Virus record (IMG/VR): IMGVR_UViG_3300045936_000177
Location: 1 to 20,081 of that record
Direction: 5' to 3' (one strand)
Length of the DNA stretch: 20,081 nucleotides
From: a virus
Shown here piece by piece: positions 681 to 20,081 of the stretch (positions are counted from its first letter, which is position 1; the number at the start of each line of letters is the position of its first letter). A program made the position numbers and the translations under genes. The notes under the pieces were generated by a model. The model was given only the letters and a program-made list of their open reading frames with translations. It was not told the origin of the DNA and did no database searches.

Positions 681-1217
681 ATGCCCTCGAACGATAGCAT
701 CCCCCTCGGGTTGTGTCAGTGTGGGTGTGGTCGCACGACGACGCGGGCTAGTAAGACCAACGCGCGTCGCGGTGTTCGCAAAGGAGACCCGCTCAGGTTC
801 TTCCCTGGACACGGATCGCGAACCGGTGGTCGGCCCTACTATGCAGTCGATGACGAAACCGGATGTTGGGTGTGGCAACGATCGGTCAGCGGCGAAGGTT
901 ACGCACGGATCACAATTGGCGGGAAGACCGTCAGCGCTCATCGCTGGTATTACGAACAACGATTTGGCTCCATCCCGGAAGGGTATGAACTCGATCACAC
1001 CTGCCGCAATCGGGCATGCGTCAACCCCGACCATTTGGAGCCCGTGACCGGTGTCGAAAATATCCGGCGCGGTGACAGGACGCATCTGACCATGGACGAC
1101 GCACGGGCCATCCGCGCACTTCGCGGCAAGGCGTTTCAGCGCGAACTCGCCGCGAGATTCGCGGTAGATCAGACGACGATTAGCCGCATTCAACTCAGGA
1201 AGGTTTGGCGAGAATAG
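681..1217 (+). CDS. HNH homing endonuclease 1 (HNH_3 type with C-terminal HTH)
   Basis: Free-standing 178-aa endonuclease on the strand opposite the late operon. Residues 12-44 carry a Cys-rich N-terminal module (CQCGCG then RFFPGHG) common in phage HNH proteins. CWVWQ (62-66) and GYARI precede the HNH core: AHRWYYE (H87), ELDHTC (H106), CVNPDHL (N115, H118). The C-terminal ~40 residues form a helix-turn-helix (RELAARFAVDQTTISRI), a usual DNA-recognition module of homing enzymes. AAAGGA lies 9 nt before ATG. It sits between the 1268-1678 gene and the endolysin, and its stop codon directly abuts an 18-codon relic of the endolysin start on the other strand. Third positions are more mixed than in the structural genes, consistent with separate ancestry. 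Confidence 0.9.
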   Translation: MPSNDSIPLGLCQCGCGRTTTRASKTNARRGVRKGDPLRFFPGHGSRTGGRPYYAVDDETGCWVWQRSVSGEGYARITIGGKTVSAHRWYYEQRFGSIPEGYELDHTCRNRACVNPDHLEPVTGVENIRRGDRTHLTMDDARAIRALRGKAFQRELAARFAVDQTTISRIQLRKVWRE

Positions 1218-1271
1218 CGCGGCGGTGCCGCGGGCGGCGCTGCGGATGCGGTCGCTCGTCTTCATCGTCAT
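1218..1271 (-). pseudogene. Relic 5' end of the endolysin gene
   Basis: Eighteen open codons from ATG1271 read MTMKTSDRIRSAARGTAA and then run into the antisense of the HNH1 stop. They match the start of the working endolysin at 600 (MMRTTDRIIASTRGTA): 9 of 15 aligned residues are identical and most others conservative, yet 7 of the 9 identical residues use a different codon. The ATG overlaps the stop of the upstream gene as ATGA, the normal coupling in this operon, with GGGAG upstream. This is read as the original endolysin start, disconnected by insertion of HNH1. Confidence 0.75.
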
Positions 1272-4524: not shown

Positions 4525-4534
4525 GAGCGTCGCC

Positions 4535-4552
4535 TATACTTCGCATCGGAGG
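4535..4552 (+). promoter_or_regulatory. -10 element and ribosome site of the 4559 insert gene
   Basis: TATACT (4535-4540) is a near-consensus -10 in GC-rich sequence; GGAGG (4548-4552) lies 6 nt before GTG4559. This spacing decides the start, because the in-frame ATG4523 would lie upstream of the promoter. No clear -35 was found. A transcript from here would have a very short leader. Confidence 0.5.
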
Positions 4553-4558
4553 TGTTTC

Positions 4559-4936
4559 GTGCTCGACCTTGGCCCATCCACGCCGCTCGTGGAACGCATC
4601 ATGTCCGCAACCCAACTCCCGGCCGGAACCGAAGGCGTTGCGTTCAACGAACGCACAACCAGTTACATTCGATGGTCGCGGGATCGCCCGGACGTCATTG
4701 TCTTCACCCCGAATCTGAGCATCCAATTTCTTCCGGACCCGAGAGGTGGCCCGCCGTTTGTCTTTGCCATTACCCTCAATCGCTCCGGCCGAAGCATCTT
4801 GGCATTTGATCCGTCCGAGCCAAAGGATTCGGAACGAGAGGTCTGTCGGCGCATCGACGACGCGACCGATGGGCTCGTGACCTACGGTCTGCGCGCGACC
4901 GACAGCTACGATGTGCTTGCGTGGTTGCACGCCTAG
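4559..4936 (+). CDS. Unrecognised 125-aa protein, plus-strand insert gene
   Basis: A soluble-looking protein with no signal peptide or membrane helix. It opens MLDLGPSTPLVERIMSATQL, continues with beta-like strands (ERTTSYIRWS, DVIVFTPNLSIQFL, FVFAITLNRSGRSILAF) and ends in a helical segment (SEREVCRRIDDATDGLV, SYDVLAWLHA). No nuclease or DNA-binding motif is visible. It lies between two tail genes, opposite to them, with its own -10 and GGAGG. Its stop abuts an ATG (4937-4939 on the minus strand) overlapping the tail protein stop, so it seems to have been inserted at a TGATG coupling. Codon use is less GC-biased than the tail genes. The most economical reading is a moron-type cargo gene of unknown function. 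Confidence 0.7.
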   Translation: MLDLGPSTPLVERIMSATQLPAGTEGVAFNERTTSYIRWSRDRPDVIVFTPNLSIQFLPDPRGGPPFVFAITLNRSGRSILAFDPSEPKDSEREVCRRIDDATDGLVTYGLRATDSYDVLAWLHA

Positions 4937-7644: not shown

Positions 7645-8268
7645 ATGCGTCGAATGCTCGTGGTGATCGTGGTCGGCCTCATCGTTGCCATTGCCGCATG
7701 GACGCAAACACCGTCGGCCGCGCCCATCACACAAGGCGCTTCCCCTGTCGCTTCTCCGATGGCTCCCCCACGTCCAGAATCGATCGCCAGTAGCTTGATC
7801 GCCGGACTGCACTCTGCCGCGTACCTGCCCGAACCGACGGGCTTGGGTGACGGATGGCGACTGGAGCGGGTCGGAGTTCCCGGCGCCGACCCGGAAGTGT
7901 TCGTCGACTCGGCGAATGCCTTCTATACCGGTCCCCAGGGCGGGCGCATCGAGGTATTCGCCTACGTAACCAAGTCCGATCGCACGTCGGTTCAACAATC
8001 TTGGGAGGGGGCTTCTGCCGTATTCGAAAACCTTGCCTATAAGACCCAATATCGTCAGAGAAACGACCAAGCTGTTCCCGCTGAATGCGACAACGGAAAG
8101 AGTTCCGAGGGGACCGATCTCCTGTTCCAGGTCTCTGTTGGCATAACGATGTGTTCCGTTGGTGCCGACGCCATCGTGCTGGCCGTCGTATCTGGGGAAT
8201 ACAACGGGCAAACCGGAGCAGACGCGTCGGGAGCGGTTGTTGCCCTGAGTCTGAATCTCGACTCGTAG
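7645..8268 (+). CDS. Secreted or membrane-anchored cargo protein
   Basis: A 207-aa protein with a clear export signal: MRRM, then a hydrophobic core at ~5-19 (LVVIVVGLIVAIAAW), then a Ser/Pro/Ala linker (ITQGASPVASPMAPPRPE) of the kind common in Chloroflexota secreted proteins. There is no lipobox Cys. The rest is a compact, partly beta domain (GWRLERVGV, RIEVFAYVTKSD, LLFQVSVGITMCSV, AIVLAVVSGEYNG) with two Cys (ECDN, TMCS) that could pair outside the cell. No family is recognised. It lies opposite the late operon, between tape measure and tail tip genes, under its own promoter, so it could be expressed in a lysogen. A surface or superinfection-exclusion role is an inference from topology and context only. 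Confidence 0.75.
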   Translation: MRRMLVVIVVGLIVAIAAWTQTPSAAPITQGASPVASPMAPPRPESIASSLIAGLHSAAYLPEPTGLGDGWRLERVGVPGADPEVFVDSANAFYTGPQGGRIEVFAYVTKSDRTSVQQSWEGASAVFENLAYKTQYRQRNDQAVPAECDNGKSSEGTDLLFQVSVGITMCSVGADAIVLAVVSGEYNGQTGADASGAVVALSLNLDS

Positions 8269-8306: not shown

Positions 8307-11300
8307 TCACGAGTACCTCGCTCCGTCGCTGATCCACTCGTGCGCTTCTCGCCCCTGCCGGGACTCCCGCATGACCCGAACGAGGTCGCCTTCCGACAAC
8401 GCGTAGTTGTGGTGGTTGACGATGACCGTGGTACCTCGACTGGGCGCCGTAGCGAGGTGCGCACCGTTCGGGGAGAACGCCGCACTCACGCCCGGGGTGA
8501 GCGCCCGGTTTACCCGCGCCATGGCCGTCTCGGTCGTCGCACCCATGCCGGCGAGGCTCCGCCGTAGCCCATCCGCGATGTAGTCCCACGAGATCGGCTT
8601 CGAGAGCGGTCCCTTCTTCGCCGGAGAACTCGGCAGCAGATCCCGAATCTGCTGCGCCGCCGCCGCCGCATGCTCCACTGCCCGATCCAGAGCGCTCGTG
8701 TCCATCGTCAGGCGGGAAGAGAACACCGCCCCGTCCCACTGATTCCCCAGCGAAAAGGCAAGGCTGACCGCGTCGCGGACGCCCCGGGTATCCGCCGTGA
8801 AATCGGCCGAGAACGACGCCGAATCCCATTGGGTGCCGATCTGGCGCGAGAGGTTTCCCGCGTCTTTCACCGCCTGGGGGTCGGCAAGCAAGTCGGCCGT
8901 AAACCTCGCGGCCTCCCACTCCTTGCCGAGCGACATCACAAAGGCAGCCGCCTCGGCGACGGCCGTGGTATCGGCGGCGAATGTGGCGGTGGAATCTTCG
9001 GCGCGGCGCGGGATCTTGGGGATGCGCCTCAGGGGCATCACCTGGCTGCCGCCCGCGCCGACCGCGCCCGATCCGAGGGCAGCCGTCCCGCTTGGTTCGC
9101 TGCCGATGATCGCGTCGACGATCGTCTGAATGAAGCCGCTGGGGATGGCGGCCGTGACGGCGCCCTTGATGCCGTTCCAAATCGCCGTCCCCACTGAGGA
9201 AAAGTCGGCGCCCGTGAACCCTGATGCGACCGCGCTGACGGCCTGTTTGGCGATCGTAAGCCCTTCGCTCAAAAAATCGCCCGCATCGATCGCAGCGCCA
9301 ATCGCCGTCGCGATCCCGTTGAGGATCCCTTGCCCGAGCCCCTCCACCTTCGTCATCGCCAGCGCGATCCCACCGGCGATCGCCGTTGCTACGTCGTCGA
9401 ACTTCACGTCCTCGCCGAAGACGATGCCGGTCACGGCGCCGGCGATGAAGAGCCCGATGGCCGCCGCGACCTTCGCCGTCCCCTCGGCTCCCGCCTTCAG
9501 TACCCCAACCGCCCCGTCCGCGATCTTTTTGGGCAACCCCGACCAATCGACCTCCGTCAGATTGATCGAGGTGACGGCGGTCTTGATGCCAGTGACGAGT
9601 CCGGCCGCCACATCGGCCGCGAACACCGTTCCTTTCGCGAGGGCGTCGTGGATCGCGGAGCCGACCGCAGTGCCTGCGTTGAACACATCCTCAGCCGTGA
9701 TGTTCCAGTCCGCAATTCCGGCGATCGTGGCCTTCACGGCGGTCACGATGCCCGCCCCGAAGTCGGTCGCCCGCCCGATCGCCCCGACGACGCCATCCTT
9801 GATGGCGGTCGCGACGCGCGTGAACTCCACATCGCCCGAGAGCAAGACGATCGCTTTGACGAACACCGTTCCGACGTCGACGACCTCGGTGAGCCCCGCC
9901 GAGAGTTTGGGCTTCAGCCAAGCCGCCCCGTCCGTCGCCAACGCATGAAGGTCGTTTGCCGCGTCGTCCGCAAACCCGACCACGGCGGCCACCGATACCG
10001 CCCCCAAGGCAACGACCGCCGTCAGCCCGGAGTCGAGTTTGGTCTTCAGCCACGCCGCGCCGTCGTTGGCGAGCGACCAGAGATCGTTCGCGGCATCCTG
10101 CGCGAAGGCGATTCCCGCGGAGATCGTGACCGTGCCGAGATCGGCCGTGTTATCCCAAGCCCACCCCGCCGCCGCCTTCAGCCCCGCCCAGACATCGGAC
10201 GCCACGTCTTTGAGCCAGCCCGTGACGGTCGGCACGATCGTCGAGAGCGTCCAATCGCCAAGATCGACCAGCCCGCTCCACGCCCATCCGGCGGCAGCCT
10301 TGAGTCCCGCCCACGCGTCCGCCGCGGTGTCCTTGAGCCACCCGGTCACCAACGGCGCGACCGTGTCGAGCGTCCAATCTCCGAGCGCGGCGGTGCCCGC
10401 GAAGGCCCACCCCGCCGCCGCTTTCACGCCGGCCCAGGCATCGCCCGCGGTGTCTTTGAGCCACCCTGTGACGGTCGGCTCCAGCACGTTGAGTATCCAG
10501 TTCGTGATCGAGAACGGCTCCCACATCTCGGTGCCGTCGCCACGCGACGAGGCGCCGCCGAACAGCCGCTCCTTCAGCCACGCCCAGGCATCCTCCGCCC
10601 ACACGAAGACCCGCGGCGCCCCCACCGTCAGCGCCCACCCCGTCACCTCGCCAACGAGATCGAAGAACCCCGGTATCCCGTCCGTCTTCAGCCAGTCCCA
10701 GAGATCGGACGCCCACGCCGAGACCACCGGCGGTCCCACCCGCAACGCCCACCCGACCAGATCGCCACCGACATCGAGCAAGGTGCGCAGCGGCGCTAAT
10801 GCCGCATCGACCGCCCCCGCGAAGTCGCCCCGCAGCAGCGCCGCCAGCGTGCGGAACGGCGCCGCCAGCGTCGACCCCACCAGTCGCGCCAGCCCCGACA
10901 CGACCACCGCGATCTCGGTCATGTGGGCGCCGAGGAAGGCGAGCGCCGCCGTCGTGCCGGTGATCGCGGCCAACAGGATCGGGCCGAGCGCGGGGATCAA
11001 CTCACGCCGCAGGAATTGGGTAAAATCGGTCACGCCCCGGACGAGCAGATTGAGCATCCCCTGGAGTGAGAGCCACTTCCCCAGGTCAAATCTCGTTGCC
11101 TGCTCGACTGCCGCTCCGAACCCCTTGAACGCCCGCCCCAACCGGACGATCGACGTCGTCAACTGGCGCCCGAGGTCCTTGCCGAACAGGCGCCCCAACC
11201 GTTTCGACAGTTCCGCCATTGCCGCGATGTCCTGGGGGTTGCGCATGATGTCGAAGAAGAGCGCCGCCGCCTGAGTGACGTCGCGGTAGGTGTTACGCAG

Positions 11301-12920
11301 TTGCCGCAGCGGCTTCGCCAGTTGGACTAAGGCGGTTTGGACGGCACGCACCTGCTCGAAGTTGAGCCCAAAGACCTTGGAGAGCGAGGTCACTGCCGCC
11401 TGGATCGCCTGAGATTGGGAGGTAAACTTGCCGCCCGCTTGAAACTTGGTGCCGAAGAGGGCGGCGATTACGTCGCGGATGGGGCCGGCGGCGGCGACAA
11501 TCTTCCCGAATGTGGTCTGCACCGAATTGGCAACGCTGCTCACTGCATCCCGGAAGCCGAACAGGTTGACCTTGTAGGCGACTCCGAGGGCGGCCAGGGC
11601 GCCGACGATAAGGGCGACCGGGCCGGAGATCCCGAGCAGGAACGGCAGCATCGCCTTGAACGCCTGCACCGCCGCAATCACTTGTGGCGCGAGCAGGATG
11701 AAACCGCCCGCGAGCGTCGCGATCACGCCCGCCGCCGCTCCACCGAAGGCCGCGATCTTCTGGAGCGGTTCGGGCAGCTCGAGCAAGGCGTTGACGGCAG
11801 CGGTGGCGGCGTCGACGATCGTACGCAGCGGCGGCAGCAGCGCGGAGCCGATGACGATCGCGAGGGTTTCAACCGACCCTTTGAGTTGCTCCAGGCTGCC
11901 CTTGAAGTTGTCGAGGCGCGTCGCGGCGGCGCGCTGGGCAGCCCCGGCATCGTCGACTGCCTCCCGGTACTCCTGAACCCCCTTCGTCCCTTCTTTGTAG
12001 AGGATGTTGGCAGCACGCACGGCATCGGAGCCAAAAAGCACGGCGAGGGCGGTATTGCGCTCCTCTTCGGTCAGTCCGGCGAGGCGGTCCCGCAACTGTC
12101 CGGCGACGCCATCGAGCCCAATGAACTGTCCCTGGGCGTCGAAGAACGACAGCCCCAATTGATCCATGAGATCGGCTTGCTTCGCCGTGGGATCGAGCAT
12201 CGAGAGCAGGGCCGTCTTCAGCGAGGTCCCCGCGTCGCTCCCTCTGAGCCCATTATCGGCAAACAGCGCCAGCGCCCCGGCGGTGTCCTCGATGGTGAGG
12301 CCGAACGACGCCGCCACCGCCCCCGCTTGCGCCATGCCTGCCGCAAGGTCGGTCACGTCGCTCGCGCTCTTGTTCGCTGCGGCGGCGAAGACATCGGCGA
12401 CGTGGACGGCCTGGTCGCCCGAAAGGTTGAAGATGTTGAGGGCGTTGGACATCACCATCGCGGCTTGCGGCACCGCGACGCCGGCGGCAGCGGCGAGGGC
12501 CACCGCGCCGTCCGCTGCACCCCGGAGAATGTCCTCGGTGGAAACACCCGCCTTCCCGAGCTCTTCGATCGCCTGGGCAGCGTCGCTCGCGCTAAATGAG
12601 GTCGACTTGCCGAGGTCGAGCGCCTTTTGCCGTAGCGCCTCAAACTCCGCCCCGGTTGCGTTGGTGACGGCGGCGACCGCCGACATCTGCTCTTCAAAGT
12701 TCGCCGCCGTGTTGACGGCAAGGCCGAGCCCGCCGAGGACGGCCACGCCGAACCCGGTCATGACTCGCCCGGTTCCCTGGAGTTTGTCGAATGCGGATGT
12801 GGAGGACTTGCCGAAGGCGTTGAGGGATCGCTGGACGTGGTCGATGTTCGCGATGGCTTTCGCCACCTCGATCTCGATCGAACCATGGGCCGAGCCCAGA
12901 TCGACGCCGCCCGCGCTCAC
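8307..12920 (-). CDS. Tape measure protein (TP901-type)
   Basis: At 1537 aa this is the longest gene. Tape measure proteins set tail length and assist DNA delivery. An N-terminal helix precedes a TP901-like tail tape measure domain (~70-330): ANFEEQMSAVAAVTNATGAE, TSFSASDAAQAIEELGKAGV, ALALFADNGLRGSDAGTSLK, GSDAVRAANILYKEG. Hydrophobic segments follow (~355-455: GVIATLAGGFILLAPQVIAA, GPVALIVGALAALG). The centre has tandem ~41-residue Trp-rich repeats, and the C-terminal part has 30-residue repeats, then LPSSPAKKGPL, a motif typical of tape measure C-termini. At about 1.5 A per residue the tail would be roughly 0.2 micrometre, an inference. ATG12920 overlaps the stop of the chaperone extension (ATGA). 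Its stop overlaps an ATG (8305-8307) now leading into the 7645 insert. Confidence 0.93.
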   Translation of the reverse strand: MSAGGVDLGSAHGSIEIEVAKAIANIDHVQRSLNAFGKSSTSAFDKLQGTGRVMTGFGVAVLGGLGLAVNTAANFEEQMSAVAAVTNATGAEFEALRQKALDLGKSTSFSASDAAQAIEELGKAGVSTEDILRGAADGAVALAAAAGVAVPQAAMVMSNALNIFNLSGDQAVHVADVFAAAANKSASDVTDLAAGMAQAGAVAASFGLTIEDTAGALALFADNGLRGSDAGTSLKTALLSMLDPTAKQADLMDQLGLSFFDAQGQFIGLDGVAGQLRDRLAGLTEEERNTALAVLFGSDAVRAANILYKEGTKGVQEYREAVDDAGAAQRAAATRLDNFKGSLEQLKGSVETLAIVIGSALLPPLRTIVDAATAAVNALLELPEPLQKIAAFGGAAAGVIATLAGGFILLAPQVIAAVQAFKAMLPFLLGISGPVALIVGALAALGVAYKVNLFGFRDAVSSVANSVQTTFGKIVAAAGPIRDVIAALFGTKFQAGGKFTSQSQAIQAAVTSLSKVFGLNFEQVRAVQTALVQLAKPLRQLRNTYRDVTQAAALFFDIMRNPQDIAAMAELSKRLGRLFGKDLGRQLTTSIVRLGRAFKGFGAAVEQATRFDLGKWLSLQGMLNLLVRGVTDFTQFLRRELIPALGPILLAAITGTTAALAFLGAHMTEIAVVVSGLARLVGSTLAAPFRTLAALLRGDFAGAVDAALAPLRTLLDVGGDLVGWALRVGPPVVSAWASDLWDWLKTDGIPGFFDLVGEVTGWALTVGAPRVFVWAEDAWAWLKERLFGGASSRGDGTEMWEPFSITNWILNVLEPTVTGWLKDTAGDAWAGVKAAAGWAFAGTAALGDWTLDTVAPLVTGWLKDTAADAWAGLKAAAGWAWSGLVDLGDWTLSTIVPTVTGWLKDVASDVWAGLKAAAGWAWDNTADLGTVTISAGIAFAQDAANDLWSLANDGAAWLKTKLDSGLTAVVALGAVSVAAVVGFADDAANDLHALATDGAAWLKPKLSAGLTEVVDVGTVFVKAIVLLSGDVEFTRVATAIKDGVVGAIGRATDFGAGIVTAVKATIAGIADWNITAEDVFNAGTAVGSAIHDALAKGTVFAADVAAGLVTGIKTAVTSINLTEVDWSGLPKKIADGAVGVLKAGAEGTAKVAAAIGLFIAGAVTGIVFGEDVKFDDVATAIAGGIALAMTKVEGLGQGILNGIATAIGAAIDAGDFLSEGLTIAKQAVSAVASGFTGADFSSVGTAIWNGIKGAVTAAIPSGFIQTIVDAIIGSEPSGTAALGSGAVGAGGSQVMPLRRIPKIPRRAEDSTATFAADTTAVAEAAAFVMSLGKEWEAARFTADLLADPQAVKDAGNLSRQIGTQWDSASFSADFTADTRGVRDAVSLAFSLGNQWDGAVFSSRLTMDTSALDRAVEHAAAAAQQIRDLLPSSPAKKGPLSKPISWDYIADGLRRSLAGMGATTETAMARVNRALTPGVSAAFSPNGAHLATAPSRGTTVIVNHHNYALSEGDLVRVMRESRQGREAHEWISDGARYS
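8700..8970 (-). repeat. Three 30-residue tandem repeats in tape measure C-terminal region
   Basis: Three 90-nt units without gaps. Each encodes a helix, then a Gly-x-x-W-[DE] turn (GKEWEAARF, GTQWDSASF, GNQWDGAVF), then a strand ending A/M-D-[PT]. A partial unit (ATFAADT) precedes them and a degenerate one (SALDRAVEHA) follows. Confidence 0.75.
10105..10475 (-). repeat. Three ~41-residue Trp-rich tandem repeats in tape measure centre
   Basis: Units of about 123 nt share V-T-G-W-L-K-D-x-A-x-D-x-W-A-G-[VL]-K-A-A-A-G-W-A followed by a short variable stretch and L-G-D-W-T. Two looser copies of a related motif (DAANDLWSLANDGAAWLK, DAANDLHALATDGAAWLK) follow at 9890-10105, and a preceding stretch with paired Trp may be an older version. 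They suggest stepwise lengthening of the tape measure by unit duplication. Confidence 0.75.
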
Positions 12921-13306
12921 GGCTCGTCGTCCGCGTCGGCCCAGTCGCCCGCGAGTAGGTCGAGCGCCAGCGTCTCGGCATTGGTCGTCCCAAACTGCTC
13001 GGCGATCTGGGCCATCTCGGCGTCCTCATCGGTCAGCGCCAATACGTCGGCGAGCGTCCGGTACTTGGGGACCGACTGCTTGGGTTTGGCGTTCCTGGAC
13101 GGCGTCGGCGCGTCGACGAGATCCGTCTCGTTCGCCCGGTGGTCAGCCCATCGCTTCAGGTCGCGGACGGCGAAGTCGAAGTCGAGACGGACATCAAGAG
13201 GCCACCCGGCCTCGCTTAGTTCCAGACACTCCGATGGCCGCCTCCCCGACGACTCCGCCAGGTCCGCCAACTTCCACATCTGGAGCCGGTTCGTCAGCAA
13301 CGGCGC
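12917..13306 (-). CDS. Tail assembly chaperone C-terminal extension (+1 frame, gpGT-like)
   Basis: Open frame overlapping the 3' end of the 13817 gene and ending in an ATGA overlap with the tape measure start, the classical place of the lambda T part of gpG-T. It encodes ~129 residues: LLTNRLQMWKLADLAE, ASSGRRPSE-like turn, then DVRLDFDFAVRDLKRWADHR, a Pro/Lys linker, and an acidic helical C-terminus (LADVLALTDEDAEMAQIAEQ). No start codon with a ribosome site precedes it; ATG at the QMWKL segment lacks one. It is most likely made by ribosomal frameshifting as a fusion of ~299 aa with the upstream product. The frame is +1 (or -2) relative to that gene, not the -1 of lambda. Confidence 0.72.
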   Translation of the reverse strand, partial: APLLTNRLQMWKLADLAESSGRRPSECLELSEAGWPLDVRLDFDFAVRDLKRWADHRANETDLVDAPTPSRNAKPKQSVPKYRTLADVLALTDEDAEMAQIAEQFGTTNAETLALDLLAGDWADADDEP

Positions 13307-13817
13307 GAAAGAGCGCCGCCGCGGCCTCGTTGTTCGTCTCGCTCCAGAGGAAGAACTGCTGACGGTCGTAGGCATCGAGGTCGGTCACGAGGACCTGGCC
13401 GTCGTCGGTGCGCTCCATCTCCGAGAAGATCAGTCGCGGCTTGACGAACCCGGCCACGCAGTAGGCGTTGCAGATCTCTTCGTTGGCCTTGCTGTTGCGC
13501 TGCCACTGCGCCAGTGCCACCGACCCGTCTGAGCGCATCGCGCTCGGCTGGTCGCCGACCTTGGCGAGCGCATTGAGGACGCGCTGCTGCTGGTGCTGAG
13601 GCAGTGTTCCGATCGCGACCCGATCGGCGCTCGTGATGCGCCGGACGAGTGCCTTGCCACCCGTGCGCGGCAGGCGGAACCAAAAGCCCTGTCCGGCCTT
13701 GGTTCGCGCTGACCGAGCCCGTTCGGGCGTCAGTAGATCGCCTTGATCGTCGGCGCCGACCTCATCAACAAACTCGACCGGGATCGGCACCGGCCCCGAA
13801 AATGTCTGATTGTCCAC
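13194..13817 (-). CDS. Tail assembly chaperone (gpG-like)
   Basis: A 207-aa protein between the major tail protein and tape measure genes, the position of the chaperone that coats the tape measure before tail polymerisation. GTG13817 has GGGAGG about 7 nt upstream. Visible features: a Pro/Asp-rich start, WFRLPRTGGKALVRRITSAD, a helix (PQHQQQRVLNALAKVG), and NEEICNAYCVAGFVKPRLIF, a pattern familiar from siphovirus chaperones. FFLWSETNNEAAAALF lies just before the likely slip site; beyond it the zero frame gives Gly/Val-rich sequence to the stop, as in the unshifted product. Assignment rests mainly on context and the overlapping second frame. Confidence 0.75.
   Translation of the reverse strand: MDNQTFSGPVPIPVEFVDEVGADDQGDLLTPERARSARTKAGQGFWFRLPRTGGKALVRRITSADRVAIGTLPQHQQQRVLNALAKVGDQPSAMRSDGSVALAQWQRNSKANEEICNAYCVAGFVKPRLIFSEMERTDDGQVLVTDLDAYDRQQFFLWSETNNEAAAALFRAVADEPAPDVEVGGPGGVVGEAAIGVSGTKRGRVAS
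13307..13313 (-). other. Candidate +1 frameshift site
   Basis: Zero-frame codons CTC TTT C. tRNA-Phe reading TTT (residue 170) could move one base forward onto TTC and enter the frame that leads to the tape measure overlap. It lies just after the region where the zero frame still looks chaperone-like and inside the overlap of both open frames. No supporting pseudoknot or Shine-Dalgarno-like stimulator was established; other sites in the overlap remain possible. Confidence 0.4.
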
Positions 13818-13872
13818 AACTGCACCTCCCGCGCCTGTCCGCGCCTCTGTGCCTATCCCGCCGCGCCTACGG

Positions 13873-13899
13873 TCAGGCGGCGGCGGCGTAGGTCCGAAA
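13873..13899 (-). pseudogene. Relic 3' end of the major tail protein gene
   Basis: Minus-strand codons here encode QFRTYAAAA then TGA; the working major tail protein ends VQQETYAAAA then TAA at 14637. The shared T-Y-A-A-A-A-stop is encoded with a different codon at every one of the seven positions (ACC TAC GCC GCC GCC GCC TGA here; ACG TAT GCT GCG GCT GCA TAA in the gene). The relic begins right at the HNH2 promoter. This is read as the original gene end, cut off when HNH2 and a recoded end were inserted. Confidence 0.72.
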
Positions 13900-13900
13900 C

Positions 13901-13939
13901 TGGTACAATTGCGGCGTCAGTTTCCTGCTGACTTGCCGC
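13901..13939 (+). promoter_or_regulatory. Extended -10 promoter and leader hairpin of HNH gene 2
   Basis: TGG-TACAAT (13901-13909) is an extended -10. A stem follows at once: 13911-13920 pairs with 13928-13939 (5 + 5 bp with a 2-nt bulge, 7-nt loop). With a start near 13916 only the inner stem would be in the RNA. No -35 is evident, as usual for extended -10 promoters. Confidence 0.5.
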
Positions 13940-13962
13940 ATTCGTCCCGGAGAAATCGGCCA

Positions 13963-14631
13963 ATGGAGACGACGTGCCCCCAATGCCAGCGAGTTTTTGC
14001 GCTTCGCCCCTGCGACGTACGGAAGGGCAAGCGATTCTGTTCGCGTGCGTGCTACGACAAAAGCCGCGACGCTCAACCGAAGGCGGATAGGCAGTGCGTC
14101 TGTCGGCAATGCGGTGAGACGTTCCATCCGCATCCGAGCAGCCCCGGCATCTACTGCTCGTACAGGTGCCGCGCCGCGTTTCAGAAGGGCGAGCACCACA
14201 ACCGCTACCAGGGCGGTCAGGTGACGTTGACGTGCGAGCAATGCGGCAGGGAGTTCTCGGTCTATCCCAGCCGCACGCGGCGAAAGAGTCCGGCGAAGTT
14301 GTGCTCGAAGGCGTGCACCGCGCTCTACCAGCGCGGCCCGAACGCTCCAGGGTGGAAGGGCGGACGGTTTCTTGATCCGCAGGGATACGTCGTGGTCTAC
14401 GCCCCGAACCATCCCCGTGCCTTCAACAACCACGTCTACGAACACATCCTCGTCGCTGAGGCGACACTTGGCCGGTCTCTGATGCCCGGAGAGGAGGTCC
14501 ATCACGACGACGAAGTCAGGGACAACAACGACCCATCCAACCTCATCGTGCTGACCACGTCTGAGCATCAGAAACTCCATCGCGCCAGAGAGAAGCAGAA
14601 ACGACTTATTCAGTCGAATACTGCTACGTAA
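13963..14631 (+). CDS. HNH homing endonuclease 2 with three zinc ribbons
   Basis: A 222-aa protein. Three Cys4 zinc-ribbon modules stand in series: CPQC...CSRAC (5-30), CRQC...CSYRC (47-69), CEQC...CSKAC (91-118), probably for DNA binding. The HNH core follows: DPQGYVVVYAPNHP, HVYEHILVAEATLGRSL, EEVHHDD (H180/H181), PSNLIVL (N193) and EHQKLH (H202). ATG13963 has GGAG 10 nt upstream; the in-frame extension to 13810 crosses the promoter and is rejected. The stop lies 5 nt from the opposing stop of the major tail protein. It is flanked by the relic (left) and recoded working end (right) of that gene, pointing to insertion near the gene's 3' end. Confidence 0.9.
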   Translation: METTCPQCQRVFALRPCDVRKGKRFCSRACYDKSRDAQPKADRQCVCRQCGETFHPHPSSPGIYCSYRCRAAFQKGEHHNRYQGGQVTLTCEQCGREFSVYPSRTRRKSPAKLCSKACTALYQRGPNAPGWKGGRFLDPQGYVVVYAPNHPRAFNNHVYEHILVAEATLGRSLMPGEEVHHDDEVRDNNDPSNLIVLTTSEHQKLHRAREKQKRLIQSNTAT

Positions 14632-14636
14632 ACGGC

Positions 14637-15170
14637 TTATGCAGCCGCAGCATACGTCTCCTGTTGCACCCTTGAGAGGAGCACACCCGAGATCGCCACG
14701 CCCTCGAAGTCGAGGCTCGGCTCGTCCCAGGCGTCGCCCGAGAGTTCTTCGGCGGGACCGCTCGTCACGAGCAGCTTCTTGAGGTTGACCTGGTAGCCCT
14801 CGCCGGAGACCGCCCGGTTGAACGTCGTCGCCGTCGCCTGAAAGTAGGTCGAGCCCGCCGACGCGCTTTCGTCGAGGGTGTTGAGTTCGGTCGTCCCCGT
14901 CCCGGACGGCACCACCGACCCGCCGACCATCACGGCGAGGGCCGCCAGCGGCACCGAGCCGATCGTGATCGATCCCGTCAGCCGCTTGGGGAGGCGGACG
15001 ATCGCGATCGTCGTGTTGTCGCCGGTCTGCTCGTCGGAGTCGGACTCGACATCCCAACTGATCGACTTGGAGCCGTAGACGTCGACGTTGCTGCCCGGCG
15101 TGTCGCCGGTCAGCAGCGCGACCTTGAGGTCTTCGAGTCCGCGGGGGACCACTTGCGTCGTCAGGGCCAT
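14637..15170 (-). CDS. Major tail protein
   Basis: A 177-aa protein of the size of siphovirus tail tube subunits, encoded between the neck genes and the chaperone/tape measure pair. The beta-rich pattern fits a tube protein: RGLEDLKVALLTGDTPGSN, VDVYGSKSISWDVESDSDEQ (a loop and strand motif common to tube proteins), TIAIVRLPKRLTGSITIGSV, YFQATATTFNRAVSGEGYQV, and SLDFEGVAISGVLLSRVQQE. GGAGG lies 5 nt before ATG15170, which follows the preceding stop by one base. The last codons (TAT GCT GCG GCT GCA TAA) depart from the GC-ending habit of the gene and look recoded. Confidence 0.85.
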   Translation of the reverse strand: MALTTQVVPRGLEDLKVALLTGDTPGSNVDVYGSKSISWDVESDSDEQTGDNTTIAIVRLPKRLTGSITIGSVPLAALAVMVGGSVVPSGTGTTELNTLDESASAGSTYFQATATTFNRAVSGEGYQVNLKKLLVTSGPAEELSGDAWDEPSLDFEGVAISGVLLSRVQQETYAAAA

Positions 15171-15171
15171 C

Positions 15172-15408
15172 TCAGCCTCCGTTCTGGTCTGCTACGGCCG
15201 GTCCCTCCGGCCCCGCCTCCGCGATCGATTCGGGCACCTCGCGCCCGGTCGTCATGTCGAACACGTGCCGGTGCGACCCGTCCTCGCCGCACCGCTTCTC
15301 TTTGCACGGCGGCGTCTCCAAGAACCGCCCGGCGATGGCCGTCCCGAAGTAGGCCCCGCCCGGCGCGACAAGCCGGATTCGGCCGGTGCTAGCTCCGCCA
15401 GGTGCCAA
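15172..15408 (-). CDS. Small Cys/His protein (unrecognised)
   Basis: About 78 aa from a tentative TTG15408 (MAPGGASTGRIRLVAPGG), ending one base before the major tail protein start. The centre has AYFGTAIAGRFLETPPC and then CKEKRCGEDGSHRHVF, a C-x4-C-x5-H-x-H spacing that could bind a metal, followed by DMTTGREVPESIAEAGPEG. It overlaps the end of the 16093 gene in the +1 frame. No good ribosome site precedes TTG; AGGAGGG lies ~27 nt upstream, so expression by frameshift from the upstream gene or another start is possible. The upstream part of this open frame (to 15579) is Arg-rich shadow. Function unknown. Confidence 0.5.
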   Translation of the reverse strand: MAPGGASTGRIRLVAPGGAYFGTAIAGRFLETPPCKEKRCGEDGSHRHVFDMTTGREVPESIAEAGPEGPAVADQNGG

Positions 15409-16093
15409 CGGTGCCCGTCCGATCCAGTCCGACCAGTCCCTCCTCGCGGCCGGAGCGCACCCGAAGGCGCTTCTCCTCCGCCGAGAGCGGCGCGCTCTTG
15501 AGCTTCCTGCGGCGCAGGTAGTCGATGAACCGCCGCCACGCCTCGTCGTCGGCGGGCTGCGGCGGCAGGGCGTCGGCATGGCTGCCGAGCACGCGGAACG
15601 GGCTGCGCGGCCGGCGCACCCGCTCCCCCTTGATCAGCCAGTACTCGCCGAGGGCGAACAGGTTGTCGAGGTCGGCGAAGTCCACCTCCACGACGTAGGT
15701 ACCGGGCTCCTTGCCGAACCGGTAGGTCTTCGTCAGCCCGTCGCGCGGCCCGAGCGTCCAGCCCGTCACGCCGTCGATCCGCGGTTGCCGCCAGAACGTC
15801 AACTGCCCGAGCACGAGGCGTTCGGTGGCGGTCAGCAGCCCCCGCAGCCGCAGCGCCCTCACGAGCTCCGCGTCGAACGGTGACGGGTCGCCGATCCACT
15901 CGACGAGGGCCTTCCGCGGTGGGACGTACCGTGCGTCGATGGGCGAGAAGTCCGGCGCGGCCGGGCGCCCGAAGAGTTCGTCGCGGTGGCGCTCGACGCT
16001 GGGGTCGGACCCGCCGACGACGACGAGGCGGTCGTCGCGCTCCCGCGCGATCTTGGCCCCGATCGCGAGTGCCCGTTCGACGTCCAGGCCCAT
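15389..16093 (-). CDS. Unrecognised 234-aa protein between tail terminator and tail tube genes
   Basis: Soluble-looking protein starting MGLDVERALAIGAKIARERD, 3 nt after the preceding stop. It has a mixed alpha/beta N-terminus (DDRLVVVGGSDPSVERHRDE), a Pro-rich middle, a helical segment (AELVRALRLRGLLTATERLV), a beta part (GLTKTYRFGKEPGTYVVEVD) followed by LDNLFALGEYWLIKGERVRR, and a basic C-terminus (RRFIDYLRRRKLK). No family is recognised. Siphovirus neck and tail tube genes are usually adjacent, so an extra gene of this size here is uncommon; it may be a virion or assembly accessory. Confidence 0.6.
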   Translation of the reverse strand: MGLDVERALAIGAKIARERDDRLVVVGGSDPSVERHRDELFGRPAAPDFSPIDARYVPPRKALVEWIGDPSPFDAELVRALRLRGLLTATERLVLGQLTFWRQPRIDGVTGWTLGPRDGLTKTYRFGKEPGTYVVEVDFADLDNLFALGEYWLIKGERVRRPRSPFRVLGSHADALPPQPADDEAWRRFIDYLRRRKLKSAPLSAEEKRLRVRSGREEGLVGLDRTGTVGTWRS

Positions 16094-16096
16094 CGC

Positions 16097-16540
16097 CTAG
16101 GCCCCCACCGCCCACAGGCCGTCGACCTGCAGGCGCATCATGCCGACGACCAGCCCCGGAATCACCGGATCGTCGTCGACGGCGACGCGACCGACCACCT
16201 TGACGCCGGCGCCGGTCCCGTTCGGCCCCGTCACGTGGCGCGGGATCGTGGTCCGGGCGATCTCCCAGGCCGCCTCCACGGCGGCGCGTCCGTCGTCGGT
16301 CGCCTCCGCCTGGAACCAGACCTGAGGGAAGCCACCGAAGGCCGTCTCCTTGCCGCCGGGGTCGTGGTCCTCGCCCCGGTCGATCACGGCAGCCGCGGGC
16401 AACGGGCGACCGAACGCGTCGAACGCCGCCGGCGTCCCCTCGCGGGTGAGCCGCGTCGGATGGACGCCACCCGTGAGGACGGCCGTCAAGGACGGCGCCC
16501 CGGCGAGTGCGGCGTAGACGGCGGAGGCCACCGGTCCCAT
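16097..16540 (-). CDS. Tail terminator-like protein
   Basis: A 147-aa protein. The N-terminus (VASAVYAALAGAPSLTAVLT, then GGVHP) resembles siphovirus tail terminators (DUF3168/gpU-like), where a short helix precedes a value-in-loop 'L-x-G-x-V' turn. FPQVWFQAEATDDGRAAVEA matches the 'P-x-V-x-F' strand plus helix of that fold, and VVGMMRLQVDGLW near the end is a final strand. Terminators cap the tail tube and join it to the head. Position before the tail tube gene supports the call. ATG16540 follows the preceding stop by one base. Confidence 0.6.
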   Translation of the reverse strand: MGPVASAVYAALAGAPSLTAVLTGGVHPTRLTREGTPAAFDAFGRPLPAAAVIDRGEDHDPGGKETAFGGFPQVWFQAEATDDGRAAVEAAWEIARTTIPRHVTGPNGTGAGVKVVGRVAVDDDPVIPGLVVGMMRLQVDGLWAVGA

Positions 16541-16541
16541 C

Positions 16542-16772
16542 CTAATCCTCGTTTTCGGGCGTTGGGCCCGTCCGGGACCGTTTGACGGTCTTTGGTGGGG
16601 CGTCGGCGGTCGCGTCGGCGTCCAGCGTCACGGTCTCGCCCTCCCGCGTCAGCGGCTGCGTCGCCGCCTCGCCGTAGTCGGGGATCTCCATCGTGGTCGG
16701 CGGGATTGGCTCCGGCACGTCCACGAAGCCGCTCGCATCGCCGGGATCGGGGGTCGTCGAGGTCGATCGCAT
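16542..16772 (-). CDS. Small acidic Pro/Thr-rich protein
   Basis: A 76-aa low-complexity protein (MRSTSTTPDPGDASGFVDVP, later EIPDYGEAATQPL and TLDADATADAPPKTVKRSR). Probably intrinsically disordered. Tight packing with both neighbours (stop one base before the terminator start; start 6 nt after the neck gene stop) and good frame continuity support a real gene. No function can be named; short disordered proteins at such sites are sometimes assembly factors. Confidence 0.5.
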   Translation of the reverse strand: MRSTSTTPDPGDASGFVDVPEPIPPTTMEIPDYGEAATQPLTREGETVTLDADATADAPPKTVKRSRTGPTPENED

Positions 16773-16778
16773 CGGGGC

Positions 16779-17135
16779 CTACTTTCCGACGAGGCGCCGC
16801 AGCGCCGCCAGGATCTGTGGGTAGTGCGTTTCGAGCGTCGGCAAGAGGATCGCGAACCGCCCTTGGTTGGCCAGCTCCAACCATTTCCCGTACTCAACGG
16901 TCGTTGCGAGGACGATCACGACCGCCGTCGCCGTTTGGATCGCCTTCGCCCGCAACCCCTGCCGGGCGTTGGTGGTCCGGTCGGTCCAGGGGGCGTTCTG
17001 CTGCGCGTACGCCTGCATCCTGGCCGCGAAGTACTCCGCCAGCGAGAAGACCGCCGCCAGGAGTCGCTTTTCGTACGACTCCAACCCGGCCACGATCACC
17101 GATGGCGGCACAATCCACCTGAAGGACGTCGCCAT
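16779..17135 (-). CDS. Neck protein, HK97 gp10-like
   Basis: A 118-aa protein with the plan of the gp10 family of head-tail joining proteins: helix (LESYEKRLLAAVFSLAEYFA, then ARMQAYAQQNAPWTDRT), the conserved 'A-P-x-x-T-x-x-x-R-x-x-L' turn here as APWTDRTTNARQGL, a hydrophobic strand (TAVVIVLATTVEYGKWLELA), then NQGRFAILLPTLETHYP and a C-terminal helix. Order relative to connector and tail terminator is as in HK97-like phages. Confidence 0.72.
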   Translation of the reverse strand: MATSFRWIVPPSVIVAGLESYEKRLLAAVFSLAEYFAARMQAYAQQNAPWTDRTTNARQGLRAKAIQTATAVVIVLATTVEYGKWLELANQGRFAILLPTLETHYPQILAALRRLVGK

Positions 17136-17138
17136 CGC

Positions 17139-17507
17139 CTACGGCCTCCCGACATCGATGGTCGCCTCAGCGAAGATGGAGCCGGCATCATCGAACACGC
17201 GTGTGATGACGCCAGTGACATCCTGAAGCCGGAAGCGGTCGCCCTGCGCGACGTCGAATCCGTCCGCTCGCGGTCGCCGGAACACCACGTCCGCTTGCGT
17301 CTCGCTCATCGACTGCGTCCCGCCGACTCGCCGGCTGTTGCGCCGGCTCACCCAATCGACAACCACCGCTTGTGCGTCGATCTCAACCCCGTCCCGATTC
17401 AGGATCAGGTCGGTGGCGGGATCGGCCACGGCACGGGCGGTGGCGAACCCATCGCGGCGGAGGCGCTTGATGGCCGCGACGTCGGCAGGCGCGAGCAGGG
17501 ACGGCAT
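17139..17507 (-). CDS. Head-closure (stopper)-like protein
   Basis: A 122-aa protein located between the connector and the gp10-like gene, where the head completion or stopper protein is expected. It opens with a helix (APADVAAIKRLRRDGFATAR), then beta strands including EIDAQAVVVDWVSRR, ADVVFRRPRADGFDVAQGDR (the 'G-D' turn before a strand is typical of such small beta-barrel head-tail proteins), and FRLQDVTGVITRVFDD. Family assignment is by context and beta-barrel pattern rather than a diagnostic motif. Confidence 0.58.
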   Translation of the reverse strand: MPSLLAPADVAAIKRLRRDGFATARAVADPATDLILNRDGVEIDAQAVVVDWVSRRNSRRVGGTQSMSETQADVVFRRPRADGFDVAQGDRFRLQDVTGVITRVFDDAGSIFAEATIDVGRP

Positions 17508-17513
17508 CGCGCC

Positions 17514-17723
17514 CTACCGCGCCTTGCCGGTGTGGTCGGCGGTGATCGTGCCCTCGGTGTGCGGGCGCTTCTTCGCCGTTGTGCGCGCGGGCGCCGGATC
17601 GATCTGCATCTCGTCGTCGTCCGCGTCGTCGTCGGCATCGGCCCCAAAGTCATCGGCCGCGTTCGCCGCCGCCTTGGCCTCGGCCTCTGCCTTGGCCTTC
17701 ATCTCCGCGTCGGTCTGTCGCAT
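17514..17723 (-). CDS. Small Ala/Asp-rich protein
   Basis: A 69-aa protein starting MRQTDAEMKAKAEAEAKAAA (charged helix) followed by an acidic run (DDFGADADDDADDDEMQID) and a basic C-terminus (TTAKKRPHTEG). Likely a helix plus disordered tail. It is packed between connector and head-closure genes with 3-6 nt gaps. It is similar in style to the 16542-16772 product; function unknown. Confidence 0.5.
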   Translation of the reverse strand: MRQTDAEMKAKAEAEAKAAANAADDFGADADDDADDDEMQIDPAPARTTAKKRPHTEGTITADHTGKAR

Positions 17724-17726
17724 CGC

Positions 17727-18143
17727 CTACCATCCTTCCTGGAATTGCCAGTCGTACGGGCGCCGGTACTCCGGCGTCGTGTCCCCGCCGCGCGTCGGCT
17801 TGGAGACCGAGGTCTGCCCGCTCGCCGTCGCGGCCGCGATCCTCTTCGTCAGTCCCGCGATCAGGTCTGTCAGGGCCTTGACTCGATTCTGCCAGGCGAC
17901 GCGGGTCGCGTCGTCGCCGTAGCTGGTCGGGCTTTGGGCCACCTTCGCCAGCGCCGCCCTGGCGCTGACGAGCAGCGCCGCTTCCTCGGTCGCCTCGGCG
18001 GCCAGGATCGCGAGGTAGGTCTCGTCCTGGAGCCACGCCCCGGACTCGCCCGTCTCCGGATCGATCTCGACCGCGGTGTCTCCCACGGCGAGACGAATCC
18101 TATCGAGTGCGGTGCCGAGTCCGGGATCGAAGGTCGCGCTCAT
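17727..18143 (-). CDS. Head-tail connector protein (gp6/gp15-like adaptor)
   Basis: A 138-aa protein, first gene after the capsid gene. It opens MSATFDPGLGTALDRIRLAV with GDTAVE, then helices typical of phage adaptor proteins: LQDETYLAILAAEATEEAAL, VSARAALAKVAQSPTSYGDD, and AWQNRVKALTDLIAGLTKRI, ending with an aromatic tail (YDWQFQEGW). The Ala-rich multi-helix plan, size and place fit the connector under the portal. ATG18143 is chosen because the longer TTG18200 start falls inside the hairpin of the HNH3 leader; a GGGG stretch precedes ATG. A separate frame ends in TGA overlapping this ATG, as if an upstream gene once ended here. Confidence 0.68.
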   Translation of the reverse strand: MSATFDPGLGTALDRIRLAVGDTAVEIDPETGESGAWLQDETYLAILAAEATEEAALLVSARAALAKVAQSPTSYGDDATRVAWQNRVKALTDLIAGLTKRIAAATASGQTSVSKPTRGGDTTPEYRRPYDWQFQEGW

Positions 18144-18151
18144 GTCGTAGC

Positions 18152-18184
18152 CCCGAATCCCGCAGAGATATGCGATAATTCGGG
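18152..18184 (+). promoter_or_regulatory. Promoter of HNH gene 3 with flanking inverted repeat
   Basis: Extended -10 TGC-GATAAT (TG 18171-18172, hexamer 18174-18179). It lies within GCGATAATTCG (18172-18182), identical to the HNH1 upstream sequence. CCCGAAT (18152-18158) and ATTCGGG (18178-18184) form a 7-bp inverted repeat enclosing the promoter, a possible operator. Confidence 0.5.
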
Positions 18185-18190
18185 CACGCG

Positions 18191-18220
18191 AAAAGGCCAA
18201 CGCGCGGGAACGCGTTGGCC
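18191..18220 (-). terminator. Perfect hairpin in HNH3 leader, intrinsic terminator on the minus strand
   Basis: Perfect 10-bp stem (18195-18204 with 18211-18220) and 6-nt loop. On the minus strand it is followed by TTTT (18194-18191), a good intrinsic terminator form between the capsid gene and the rest of the operon. On the plus strand it sits a few bases after the HNH3 start site, as in HNH1. Confidence 0.62.
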
Positions 18221-18262
18221 GGATCGCACCCTCATCCGGCCTGTTAGGGAGGTCAGAATCCG

Positions 18263-19015
18263 ATGCGCCAGAAGCGTACCAGTCGTCGTCCCCTCATTGC
18301 TCGCGTCTGTGAGCGATGTGGTGTTGAGTTCATGGCGTGGCAAAGCAAGGTGGATGTGGGCGGAGCGCGCTTTTGCGGTTACGCCTGTTGGCTCGAACAC
18401 AGACGACAGCAAACGGTCGAATGCGCCTGTGAGCAGTGCGGCAAAGCGTTCACCGTGGGGGCGGCGACGTTCGCCAAGCGCGGCGCACGCTACTGCGGAC
18501 GCCGCTGCGCGACTCTGGCGGCAATCACGCCGTTGCGCGATCGGTTCTGGACAAGGGTCAACAAGACCGACACCTGTTGGTTGTGGACGGGGAGCACCGC
18601 CGGACAGAGCGGATACGGCGTGATTGGCATCGGCCCACGCGGTGCCGGGAAGATTTACACCCACCGGCTCTCCTACGAGATCCACGTCGGACCGATCCCC
18701 GAAGGGATGCGGGTCTGCCACAACTGCCCTGAGGGCGACAATCCCCTTTGCTGTAACCCCGCGCACCTGTTCCTTGGCACCGATGCCGACAACGCCGCCG
18801 ACAAAGTTGCAAAGGGAAGGCAGACACGCGGAGAGTCGAACGCCTCCACAAAGCTGACCGAAGCGCAAGCCAGGACCGCCCTGTCGATCGACACCAGCCA
18901 GCGCGGAGCCGTCGCCAAACTCGCACGCGAATTCGGCGTCAGTCACGCGACGATTTGTGATGTCATTAGCGGCAGGACGTGGAAGCATCTGCGTCCAGAC
19001 CCTTCTCTTGGCTAA
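18263..19015 (+). CDS. HNH homing endonuclease 3 with two zinc ribbons and HTH
   Basis: A 250-aa protein. Two Cys4 modules: CERC...CGYAC (16-42) and CEQC...CGRRC (56-82). Then CWLWTG...GYGVI (105-120) and the HNH_3-type core: THRLSYE (H134), VCHNC (H153), CCNPAHLFLG (N165, H168), followed by the usual DNAADKVAKGR tail. The C-terminal helix-turn-helix (AKLAREFGVSHATICDVISG, then RTWKH) resembles that of HNH1, suggesting a shared origin. GGGAGG lies 10 nt before ATG. It stands between capsid and connector genes on the opposite strand. Its TAA overlaps the capsid TAG by two bases, leaving no intergenic space. Confidence 0.92.
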   Translation: MRQKRTSRRPLIARVCERCGVEFMAWQSKVDVGGARFCGYACWLEHRRQQTVECACEQCGKAFTVGAATFAKRGARYCGRRCATLAAITPLRDRFWTRVNKTDTCWLWTGSTAGQSGYGVIGIGPRGAGKIYTHRLSYEIHVGPIPEGMRVCHNCPEGDNPLCCNPAHLFLGTDADNAADKVAKGRQTRGESNASTKLTEAQARTALSIDTSQRGAVAKLAREFGVSHATICDVISGRTWKHLRPDPSLG

Positions 19016-20081
19016 GCTATAGAGGGCGGTGTGTAATCGCCGCTCGCCGCCACCGTGGTCAAGGTCGCGCCCGTCCGGTCTCTGACTCCGACGCCGAAGC
19101 GGTAGCGGAGGTACGCGGCGTCCAGCGGAAAGAGCGAGCGGAACCGCAGTTCAACGCCGCGTCCAAAGCGCGGCGAGTACCGCCAGGCGAGTGCATTGCG
19201 CGCGTCGAAGTTGCCGTAGGTCTTGAAGATGGCGAAATTGGCCGAGGAGCCGAGCTCCAAGAGCGAGTGCCAGACCCGGACGTCGGCCGAGCCGTCGCCG
19301 GCGTTGTAGACGCCGAGGTAGCGGGTGCGATCCACCTGGGCCACCGCATCGCCTTGGGCCGGCACGATCAAGGCGGAGCCGGAGGGTGTGAACCCGGCGA
19401 GCGCCGCGATGGCGGCGACCTCCGCCGCGCTGCCGATGAGGTCGAACGGCCCTGGATGCCAGCGCTGGAGGCGGGCCACCTGGGTCGCGATCGTCGCCGC
19501 CCGGTTGGCAGTGGTGTCGCGGAAGTAGTGGGTGTAGCCGCCCGGCAGCGCCGTGCCGTCGGGGTAGGTGCCGGAGAACGCGTTATCACCGCTGCCGCTG
19601 CCGGCAAAGCCCGGCGAGAGCGCCGTCGTCTTGCGATCGACGTACCACTCGGCGTCGTCCGTCAGGCGCCGCAGCACCATCAGCCGGCCACCGCGGACGA
19701 ACGTCGCCAGCATGTTGTCGGTCTGCCGTAACACTTCCGCCTCGGTCGCGTCCTCCTCCAGCCAGGTCTCGGTAAACCCGAGCGCCTTCTGGTACCGCCG
19801 GAACGGCAGCATGTGGGCGCGCTTCTCGGAGAACTCGGGCCGGGCGAGACCGTACTCGGTCTCCTCTTCGAGGTCGAAAGCGGTCGGGGTGTTGCCGTCG
19901 ACGGTTGGCTCGGTCGTGAAGCTGACGAGGGCGGCGACGAGCGGGTCGGCCACCTGGGCAACCGCGTTGAGCCGGGAGTCGATCGACTCGAGCGCCGATT
20001 GGAAACTCATCCCGCGCGCATTTTCGAGGGTACGCACGTAGTTGGCATCGATGTTGGCCGGGGAGTCGATCAGGGTCGTGG
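19012..20081 (-). CDS. Major capsid protein, HK97-fold (partial, 5' end outside window)
   Basis: Frame open from the right edge, so GTG20037 is internal (TLIDSPANIDANYVRTLENA precedes it). About 356 residues are visible. Pattern of an HK97-like major capsid protein: helical start, EETEYGLARPEFSEKRAHML then LPFRRYQKALGFTETWLEE resembling an E-loop to spine-helix region, a long spine helix (EAEVLRQTDNMLATFVRGGR), a glycine-rich loop, the domain with PFDLIGSAAEVAAIAALAGF and ALIVPAQGDAVAQVDRTRYL (P- and A-domain style), and a beta C-terminus (RVWHSLLELGSSANFAIFKT, AWRYSPRFGRGVELRFRSLF). The last codons (GAT, ACA, TCT ATA GCT) are less GC-ending than the body of the gene, a hint of recoding next to HNH3. 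Confidence 0.82.
   Translation of the reverse strand, partial: TTLIDSPANIDANYVRTLENARGMSFQSALESIDSRLNAVAQVADPLVAALVSFTTEPTVDGNTPTAFDLEEETEYGLARPEFSEKRAHMLPFRRYQKALGFTETWLEEDATEAEVLRQTDNMLATFVRGGRLMVLRRLTDDAEWYVDRKTTALSPGFAGSGSGDNAFSGTYPDGTALPGGYTHYFRDTTANRAATIATQVARLQRWHPGPFDLIGSAAEVAAIAALAGFTPSGSALIVPAQGDAVAQVDRTRYLGVYNAGDGSADVRVWHSLLELGSSANFAIFKTYGNFDARNALAWRYSPRFGRGVELRFRSLFPLDAAYLRYRFGVGVRDRTGATLTTVAASGDYTPPSIA

Follow-up and report, generated by a model that had tools for sequence, protein, structure and literature searches.

An HNH gene in the 3' end of a phage major tail protein gene, with a relic of the native end on one side and a re-coded working end on the other

The major tail protein gene of an uncultured phage appears to have been entered at its 3' end by a gene for a predicted HNH endonuclease (HNH2). 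Comparison with a relative lacking this gene showed an insertion in the coding end, in which the native end persists as a relic, the working end has been substituted and the protein is conserved. HNH2 is probably a self-spreading, DNA-cutting gene. We consider it likely that it forms a homing cassette, in which an HNH gene on the opposite strand is combined with a replacement 3' end that restores the gene it enters.

Gene organization of the window

The window, i.e. the whole stretch of 20,081 nucleotides that was analyzed, is an uncultured bacterial-virus record whose minus strand carries the late operon of a tailed phage. Three HNH genes (HNH1, HNH2 and HNH3) all lie on the plus strand, against the operon. 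The nuclease domain PF13392 is present in each of them, and also at three of the other loci described below (L005, L027 and L072).

19012-20037, minus strand: major head protein (open reading frames; PHROG and Pfam names)
18263-19015, plus strand: HNH1, third HNH_3 gene, without a duplicated terminus (Pfam)
between the major head and major tail protein genes, minus strand: connector genes
14637-15170, minus strand: working major tail protein gene, 177 aa (PHROG 4971 and 88, "major tail protein"; relative L002 85% identical)
14637-14675, minus strand: substitute, re-coded 3' tract of the tail gene, SRVQQETYAAAA and stop, on the near side of HNH2 (atypical codon usage)
13963-14631, plus strand: HNH2, predicted HNH_3 endonuclease (Pfam HNH_3, 1.1e-9; PHROG 15471, 1.2e-30)
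13873-13895, minus strand: relic of the original 3' end of the tail gene, GG ACC TAC GCC GCC GCC GCC TGA (L002 alignment)
13818-13872, minus strand: native intergenic DNA from the tail gene to the next gene (score 41 with the post-stop DNA of L002)
13194-13817, minus strand: next gene, probably the first tail assembly chaperone ORF (named from its position)
8307-12920, minus strand: tape measure (named by length and position)
between the tape measure and the lysin, minus strand: tail genes
1218-1265, minus strand: putative relic of the lysin 5' end, MKTSDRIRSAARGTAA, adjoining the HNH3 stop (start-anchored match 47)
681-1217, plus strand: HNH3, second terminus-carrying HNH_3 gene (Pfam HNH_3, 6.4e-12)
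538-597, minus strand: putatively substituted 5' tract of the working lysin gene, MRTTDRIIASTRGTATRAIA (atypical codon usage)
1-600, minus strand: working lysin gene with a glucosaminidase domain (PF01832, 1.7e-7), running off the window

The HNH2 queries took 13960-14631, which is one codon more than the gene (ATG at 13963, stop at 14631). The ORF following the tail gene matched its L002 counterpart with an E value of 0.002 (blastp), and the overlapping ORF 12917-13375 matched L002 positions 3837-4310 with an E value of 1e-13.

Two further plus-strand ORFs were observed. One (7645-8268), flanked by the tape measure and the following tail gene, has a signal-peptide-like start but no Pfam or PHROG match and is another insert opposing the operon strand; the second (4523-4936, 137 aa) lies between tail genes and matched no Pfam or PHROG family. 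A near-identical record, L003, aligns with window positions 14816-20081 with 30 gap positions in 5.3 kb. The IMG/VR sequence L192 (1-17596) is 100% identical across 2.7 kb at the right end of the window and extends the phage upstream; tblastn with six HNH proteins found no further HNH gene in it.

The tail gene end is doubled around HNH2

The first-pass annotation, made from the letters of the window, had reported that T-Y-A-A-A-A-stop is encoded on the minus strand on both sides of HNH2, in register, at 14637 and 13873, with all seven codons different; direct reading confirmed both points. The working end reads GAG ACG TAT GCT GCG GCT GCA TAA (stop 14637-14639) and the relic end CGG ACC TAC GCC GCC GCC GCC TGA (stop 13873-13875). 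A preceding Gln, said to be shared after a shift of one residue, contributes nothing. The substituted tract is not limited to these: some 12 codons at the gene end (SRVQQETYAAAA) are atypical. No promoter-like site was found in the surroundings of HNH2, and the one terminator found there was at chance level.

A chance likeness of two alanine-rich ends was weighed against the window itself. The stop-anchored match of nine residues scored 30. Among 972 cross-locus control pairs, 33 scored at least as high (p 0.034); in a control of 590 pairs p was 0.053. From the window alone the doubling is thus suggestive and chance is not firmly beaten, the HNH2 match by itself having a p of about 0.03–0.05. 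The earlier argument that two cases in one operon speak against chance was weak as stated, but its outcome held, the comparison with L002 being decisive. There the alignment runs on through intergenic DNA, which refutes chance, and other cases are far stronger; a fortuitous likeness is hardly conceivable.

Comparison with a relative lacking HNH2

Three relatives of the tail protein were present in IMG/VR. L001, identical to the window, also has HNH2, and L003 ends at residue 118; L002, identical at 85% over 177 residues, was the only HNH2-free relative found. No relatives were detected in INPHARED, in genome_contigs (tblastn), or in 400 genomes of the phylum of one Chloroflexota MAG; a weak match in that MAG was not recovered in the 400-genome search. 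In a Chloroflexota MAG (L193), an HNH-like gene (1895-2683) lies on the opposite strand just upstream of a distant tail protein relative (1219-1770), and no duplicated start was seen there by eye.

The tail gene of L002 ends in CAG GAG ACC TAT ACC GCC GCC GCC TAA, with the next start 70 nt on. An HNH2-free allele had been predicted to end in GCC-rich Ala codons and TGA about 55 nt before the following gene; the Ala codons were as predicted, but L002 has TAA, and its spacing is 70 nt vs 55 in the window. When the L002 allele was compared with the working-end side of HNH2 (site A) and the relic side (site B), site B scored 56, top among 996 window segments (next non-overlapping segment 31), and site A scored 25. 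For the post-stop DNA the local scores were 41 with site B and 12 with site A, and none of 5000 shuffles reached 41. Since both the end and the post-stop DNA of L002 align with site B and not with site A, site B is the native 3' end. This comparison is decisive: the relic is the native end of the tail gene, and a substitute closes the working gene. The insertion was not clean, as the relic lacks the six native codons for SRVQQE; the replaced DNA extends some 18 nt beyond what is duplicated.

HNH3 and other loci with the same arrangement

HNH3 sits between the relic MKTSDRIRSAARGTAA (1265) and the working lysin start MRTTDRIIASTRGTAT (597). Its score of 47 was higher than all 590 control pairs (maximum 46) and all but one of 972. 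The window lysin had no relatives in IMG/VR or INPHARED, so HNH3 is without an empty allele. The annotation had also placed a similar case at a 5' gene end beside an HNH gene that it called HNH1. This most likely refers to ORF 681-1217, i.e. HNH3, for which the description holds; it does not hold for HNH1 at 18263-19015, where flank surveys found a duplicated terminus on neither side. The stop of HNH1 overlaps that of the major head protein (19012). The HNH genes of one phage thus sit in different ways.

Flanks of other HNH loci were scored by start- or stop-anchored matches, which replaced gapped local alignment. The gapped local survey, by which L027 was found, also returned arginine-rich frame matches at L014 and L054, which were rejected as low-complexity; L131 was an artefact of wrong ORF ends. 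The 590-pair survey omitted L006, L008, L011 and L013 as duplicates or too close to an end. The joint survey covered 81 HNH-confirmed, non-identical loci with 972 control pairs, after removal of copies of the window phage (L001, L004, L101-L103) and of loci without a confirmed HNH core, with short flanks or with identical HNH ends. Its orientation counts were set aside, being based on longest frames and too noisy in GC-rich DNA.

In the joint survey L072 exceeded all 972 control pairs and L027, like HNH3, all but one. The top control pair (129) consisted of the related lysins of L005 and L072, and the next control scored 39; with the related-lysin pair set aside, three of the 81 loci clear the control. 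L005, L104 and HNH2 fall within the control tail, L005 and HNH2 being supported by other evidence. L177, L127, L117, L179 and L152 (scores 32–39) were not accepted as cases. None of 19 HNH loci of annotated phage records had a duplicated terminus.

At L027 the HNH gene lies between MSTSLLVLERNIAKAGFGYATGAPTS (relic) and MSTSLLQLCRNIAKAGYGYATGAPSA (working), 26 codons with a score of 102 (control maximum 46, 590 pairs). The interrupted gene had no INPHARED relative, and its IMG/VR relatives were too distant to serve as empty alleles; as for HNH3, no empty allele was found in these two databases. At L072 the relic MILATAPSMATLPVYDWQEPAIPQNHDW extends over 28 codons with a score of 139 (control maximum 43, 374 pairs), and the working copy differs from it at four residues, the GTG start counted as Val. 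The L072 relic matched L074 at 68 of 84 positions and the working copy at 63 of 84; with L073, L075 and L071 the two were equal or nearly so.

L072 and L005 have related lysins (a GH25 domain was shown for L005), and different HNH genes (L072:2288-3084 and L005:4870-5568) lie in their 5' ends at different codons. The L005 pair is VIFATAPS (relic) and MILATAPS (working), with a score of 37 (p 0.008); the relic GTG overlaps the stop of the upstream gene. In the HNH-free L074 and L075 the upstream gene directly precedes the lysin, and L075 aligns with the L005 relic side over 170 bp at 82.9% identity. These relatives mark where the HNH gene of L005 was inserted. The relic matches HNH-free alleles at 15–17 of 24 bases and the working copy at 19–20 of 24, so the identity of the L005 relic rests on position. 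L104, with the pair MNRASATSLLTK and MDRNSAVNLLTQ (p 0.02–0.03), is a probable further 5' case, its support beyond the score being its position.

By reading, unscored, the 5' cases have their own ribosome-binding-site-like stretch before the working start. HNH3, L027, L072 and L005, all at 5' ends, support the earlier suggestion that the element carries whichever terminus it interrupts.

Codon usage and composition of the substitute tracts

With the nine other genes of the window as reference, none of 4101 windows of the same length in the genes of this phage was as atypical in codon usage as the final 12 codons of the tail gene. The 12 codons preceding this tract were ordinary (2893 of 4101), as was the tail relic (2669 of 4161). 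For the lysin, none of 4021 windows of 20 codons was as atypical as the first 20 codons of the working gene beside HNH3, and the relic was again ordinary (2853 of 4061). The same residue was encoded by the same codon in 20 of 61 positions across five firm cases (Met and Trp omitted). For tail orthologs the corresponding value was 82 of 137 and for lysin orthologs 75 of 122, with Fisher p values of 0.0006 and 0.0003 vs the five cases, although the orthologs are rough yardsticks only, because the five cases come from different phages. Such low codon identity fits selection against re-cutting or recombination, and also a distant donor.

Had the gene end been duplicated locally in tandem, with later HNH insertion between the copies and drift, two copies in direct orientation would be accounted for. 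This course is nevertheless very improbable, since the copies are sharply unlike in codon usage within one genome, and a drifting copy would not conserve so much of the peptide (24 of 28 and 21 of 28 residues) when only 13 and 7 of the codons concerned stayed the same.

Passive import is a second alternative, in which recombination brought in an HNH gene together with the diverged gene end of a donor, the other side of the HNH gene being joined near the native end; the codons would then be those of the donor and the re-coding unselected. In keeping with this, HNH2 (61% GC), HNH3 (60%) and their tracts (58% and 57%) are AT-richer than the window (67%). In the working L005 lysin, roughly 80 codons from the start (L005:4657-4896) are atypical for the locus, none of 654 windows being as low, and only 8–9 of these are duplicated, as in a conversion tract. 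The available excerpt of PMC10448857 also describes nuclease genes at boundaries of exchange between phages. Nevertheless, the frame was kept in every firm case, 5' and 3', which chance joins would rarely give, and the silent divergence is greater than that between orthologs; passive import is thus considered unlikely. Against a simple form of the homing cassette, neither copy stands out in codon usage at L027 (344 and 337 of 1865), and the L005 relic is less like HNH-free alleles than its working copy.

Proposed mechanism

For the homing cassette the following course is suggested. The HNH protein would cut an uninterrupted tail gene at its 3' end, and repair from an element-bearing genome would copy in the replacement terminus together with the HNH gene, with pairing in the gene body at one flank and in the native terminus or intergenic DNA at the opposite flank. 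The tail gene then ends in the replacement and still encodes the full protein, and the native terminus beyond the HNH gene is a relic, as the comparison with L002 shows. Because it encodes a near-identical peptide in different codons, the replacement may resist both re-cutting and recombination with the relic that would expel the element. The 5' version (HNH3 and other phages) would follow the same plan, with the cassette also supplying the start codon.

A group I intron or intein with a homing endonuclease was considered and rejected, as no spliced-out sequence was found. No splicing is needed to read the tail gene, which is intact on one side of the insert, with the HNH gene on the other strand; moreover, no Rfam family reached the gathering threshold in the window, which thus has no known group I intron.

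Relation to known systems

Mobile ORFs (mORFs) that replace a C-terminus are known from fungal mitochondria, in Allomyces atp6 and in Glomus atp6, atp9, cox2 and nad3, where, according to the available part of PMC3630166, the native C-termini are 91–98% identical to a relative and the inserted ones 64–81%. As in the arrangement described here, an ORF of homing-endonuclease type occurs with a foreign terminus fused to the gene, the differences are mostly synonymous, and the native terminus lies downstream and matches element-free relatives (PMC3630166, same excerpt). The fungal elements described in that text are LAGLIDADG or GIY-YIG, mitochondrial and confined to 3' ends, with Glomus gene transcripts passing through the mORF, whereas those in the present study are HNH_3 genes of phages, on the opposite strand and at both 3' and 5' ends. 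HNH2 therefore works like the fungal elements but, as an HNH_3 gene in a phage tail operon, is not a member of that group.

The free-standing homing endonucleases seg and mob of T4 are likewise found between conserved phage genes and missing from relatives (PMC2988022, in part). The genes studied here have an HNH domain, some have collinear relatives without the element (L002 for HNH2; L074 and L075 for the lysin loci), and no intron or intein was recognized in the window. In the available portion of PMC2988022 the T4 genes are described as intergenic insertions, whereas HNH2 lies within a coding end, and that text on free-standing phage enzymes contains none of the word stems duplicat-, recod- and polymorphi-. 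Duplicated or re-coded gene ends also go unmentioned in the accessible parts of PMC2988022, PMC10448857 and PMC12724721, and among the matches listed in the open literature, represented in part, there was no phage report of such ends beside HNH genes.

HomeR, a synthetic, Cas9-based drive in Drosophila, is an engineered counterpart. It cleaves an essential gene close to the 3' end and restores that gene by means of a re-coded terminus of 22 or 27 residues that it brings along, and it was designed against conversion between rescue and native allele (PMC7968924, in the excerpt available). The likeness to HNH2 is one of design, not of kinship.

It is an evenly balanced proposition that phages harbor a class of such cassettes, with several HNH genes and re-coded 5' or 3' termini in essential virion or lysis genes, and that the re-coding is selected because it averts re-cutting and recombinational loss, which would amount to a natural home-and-rescue drive. 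For annotation, gene starts or ends beside HNH genes may be doubled, one copy being a relic. If true, the proposed mechanism would make clear why a selfish nuclease gene need not be lethal to its host even when lodged in the coding end of an essential gene, and resistance could be costly because mutations that block cutting would fall in the essential gene. It would also extend a fungal-mitochondrial mechanism to phages, adding 5' ends, and provide a natural counterpart of an engineered gene-drive design.
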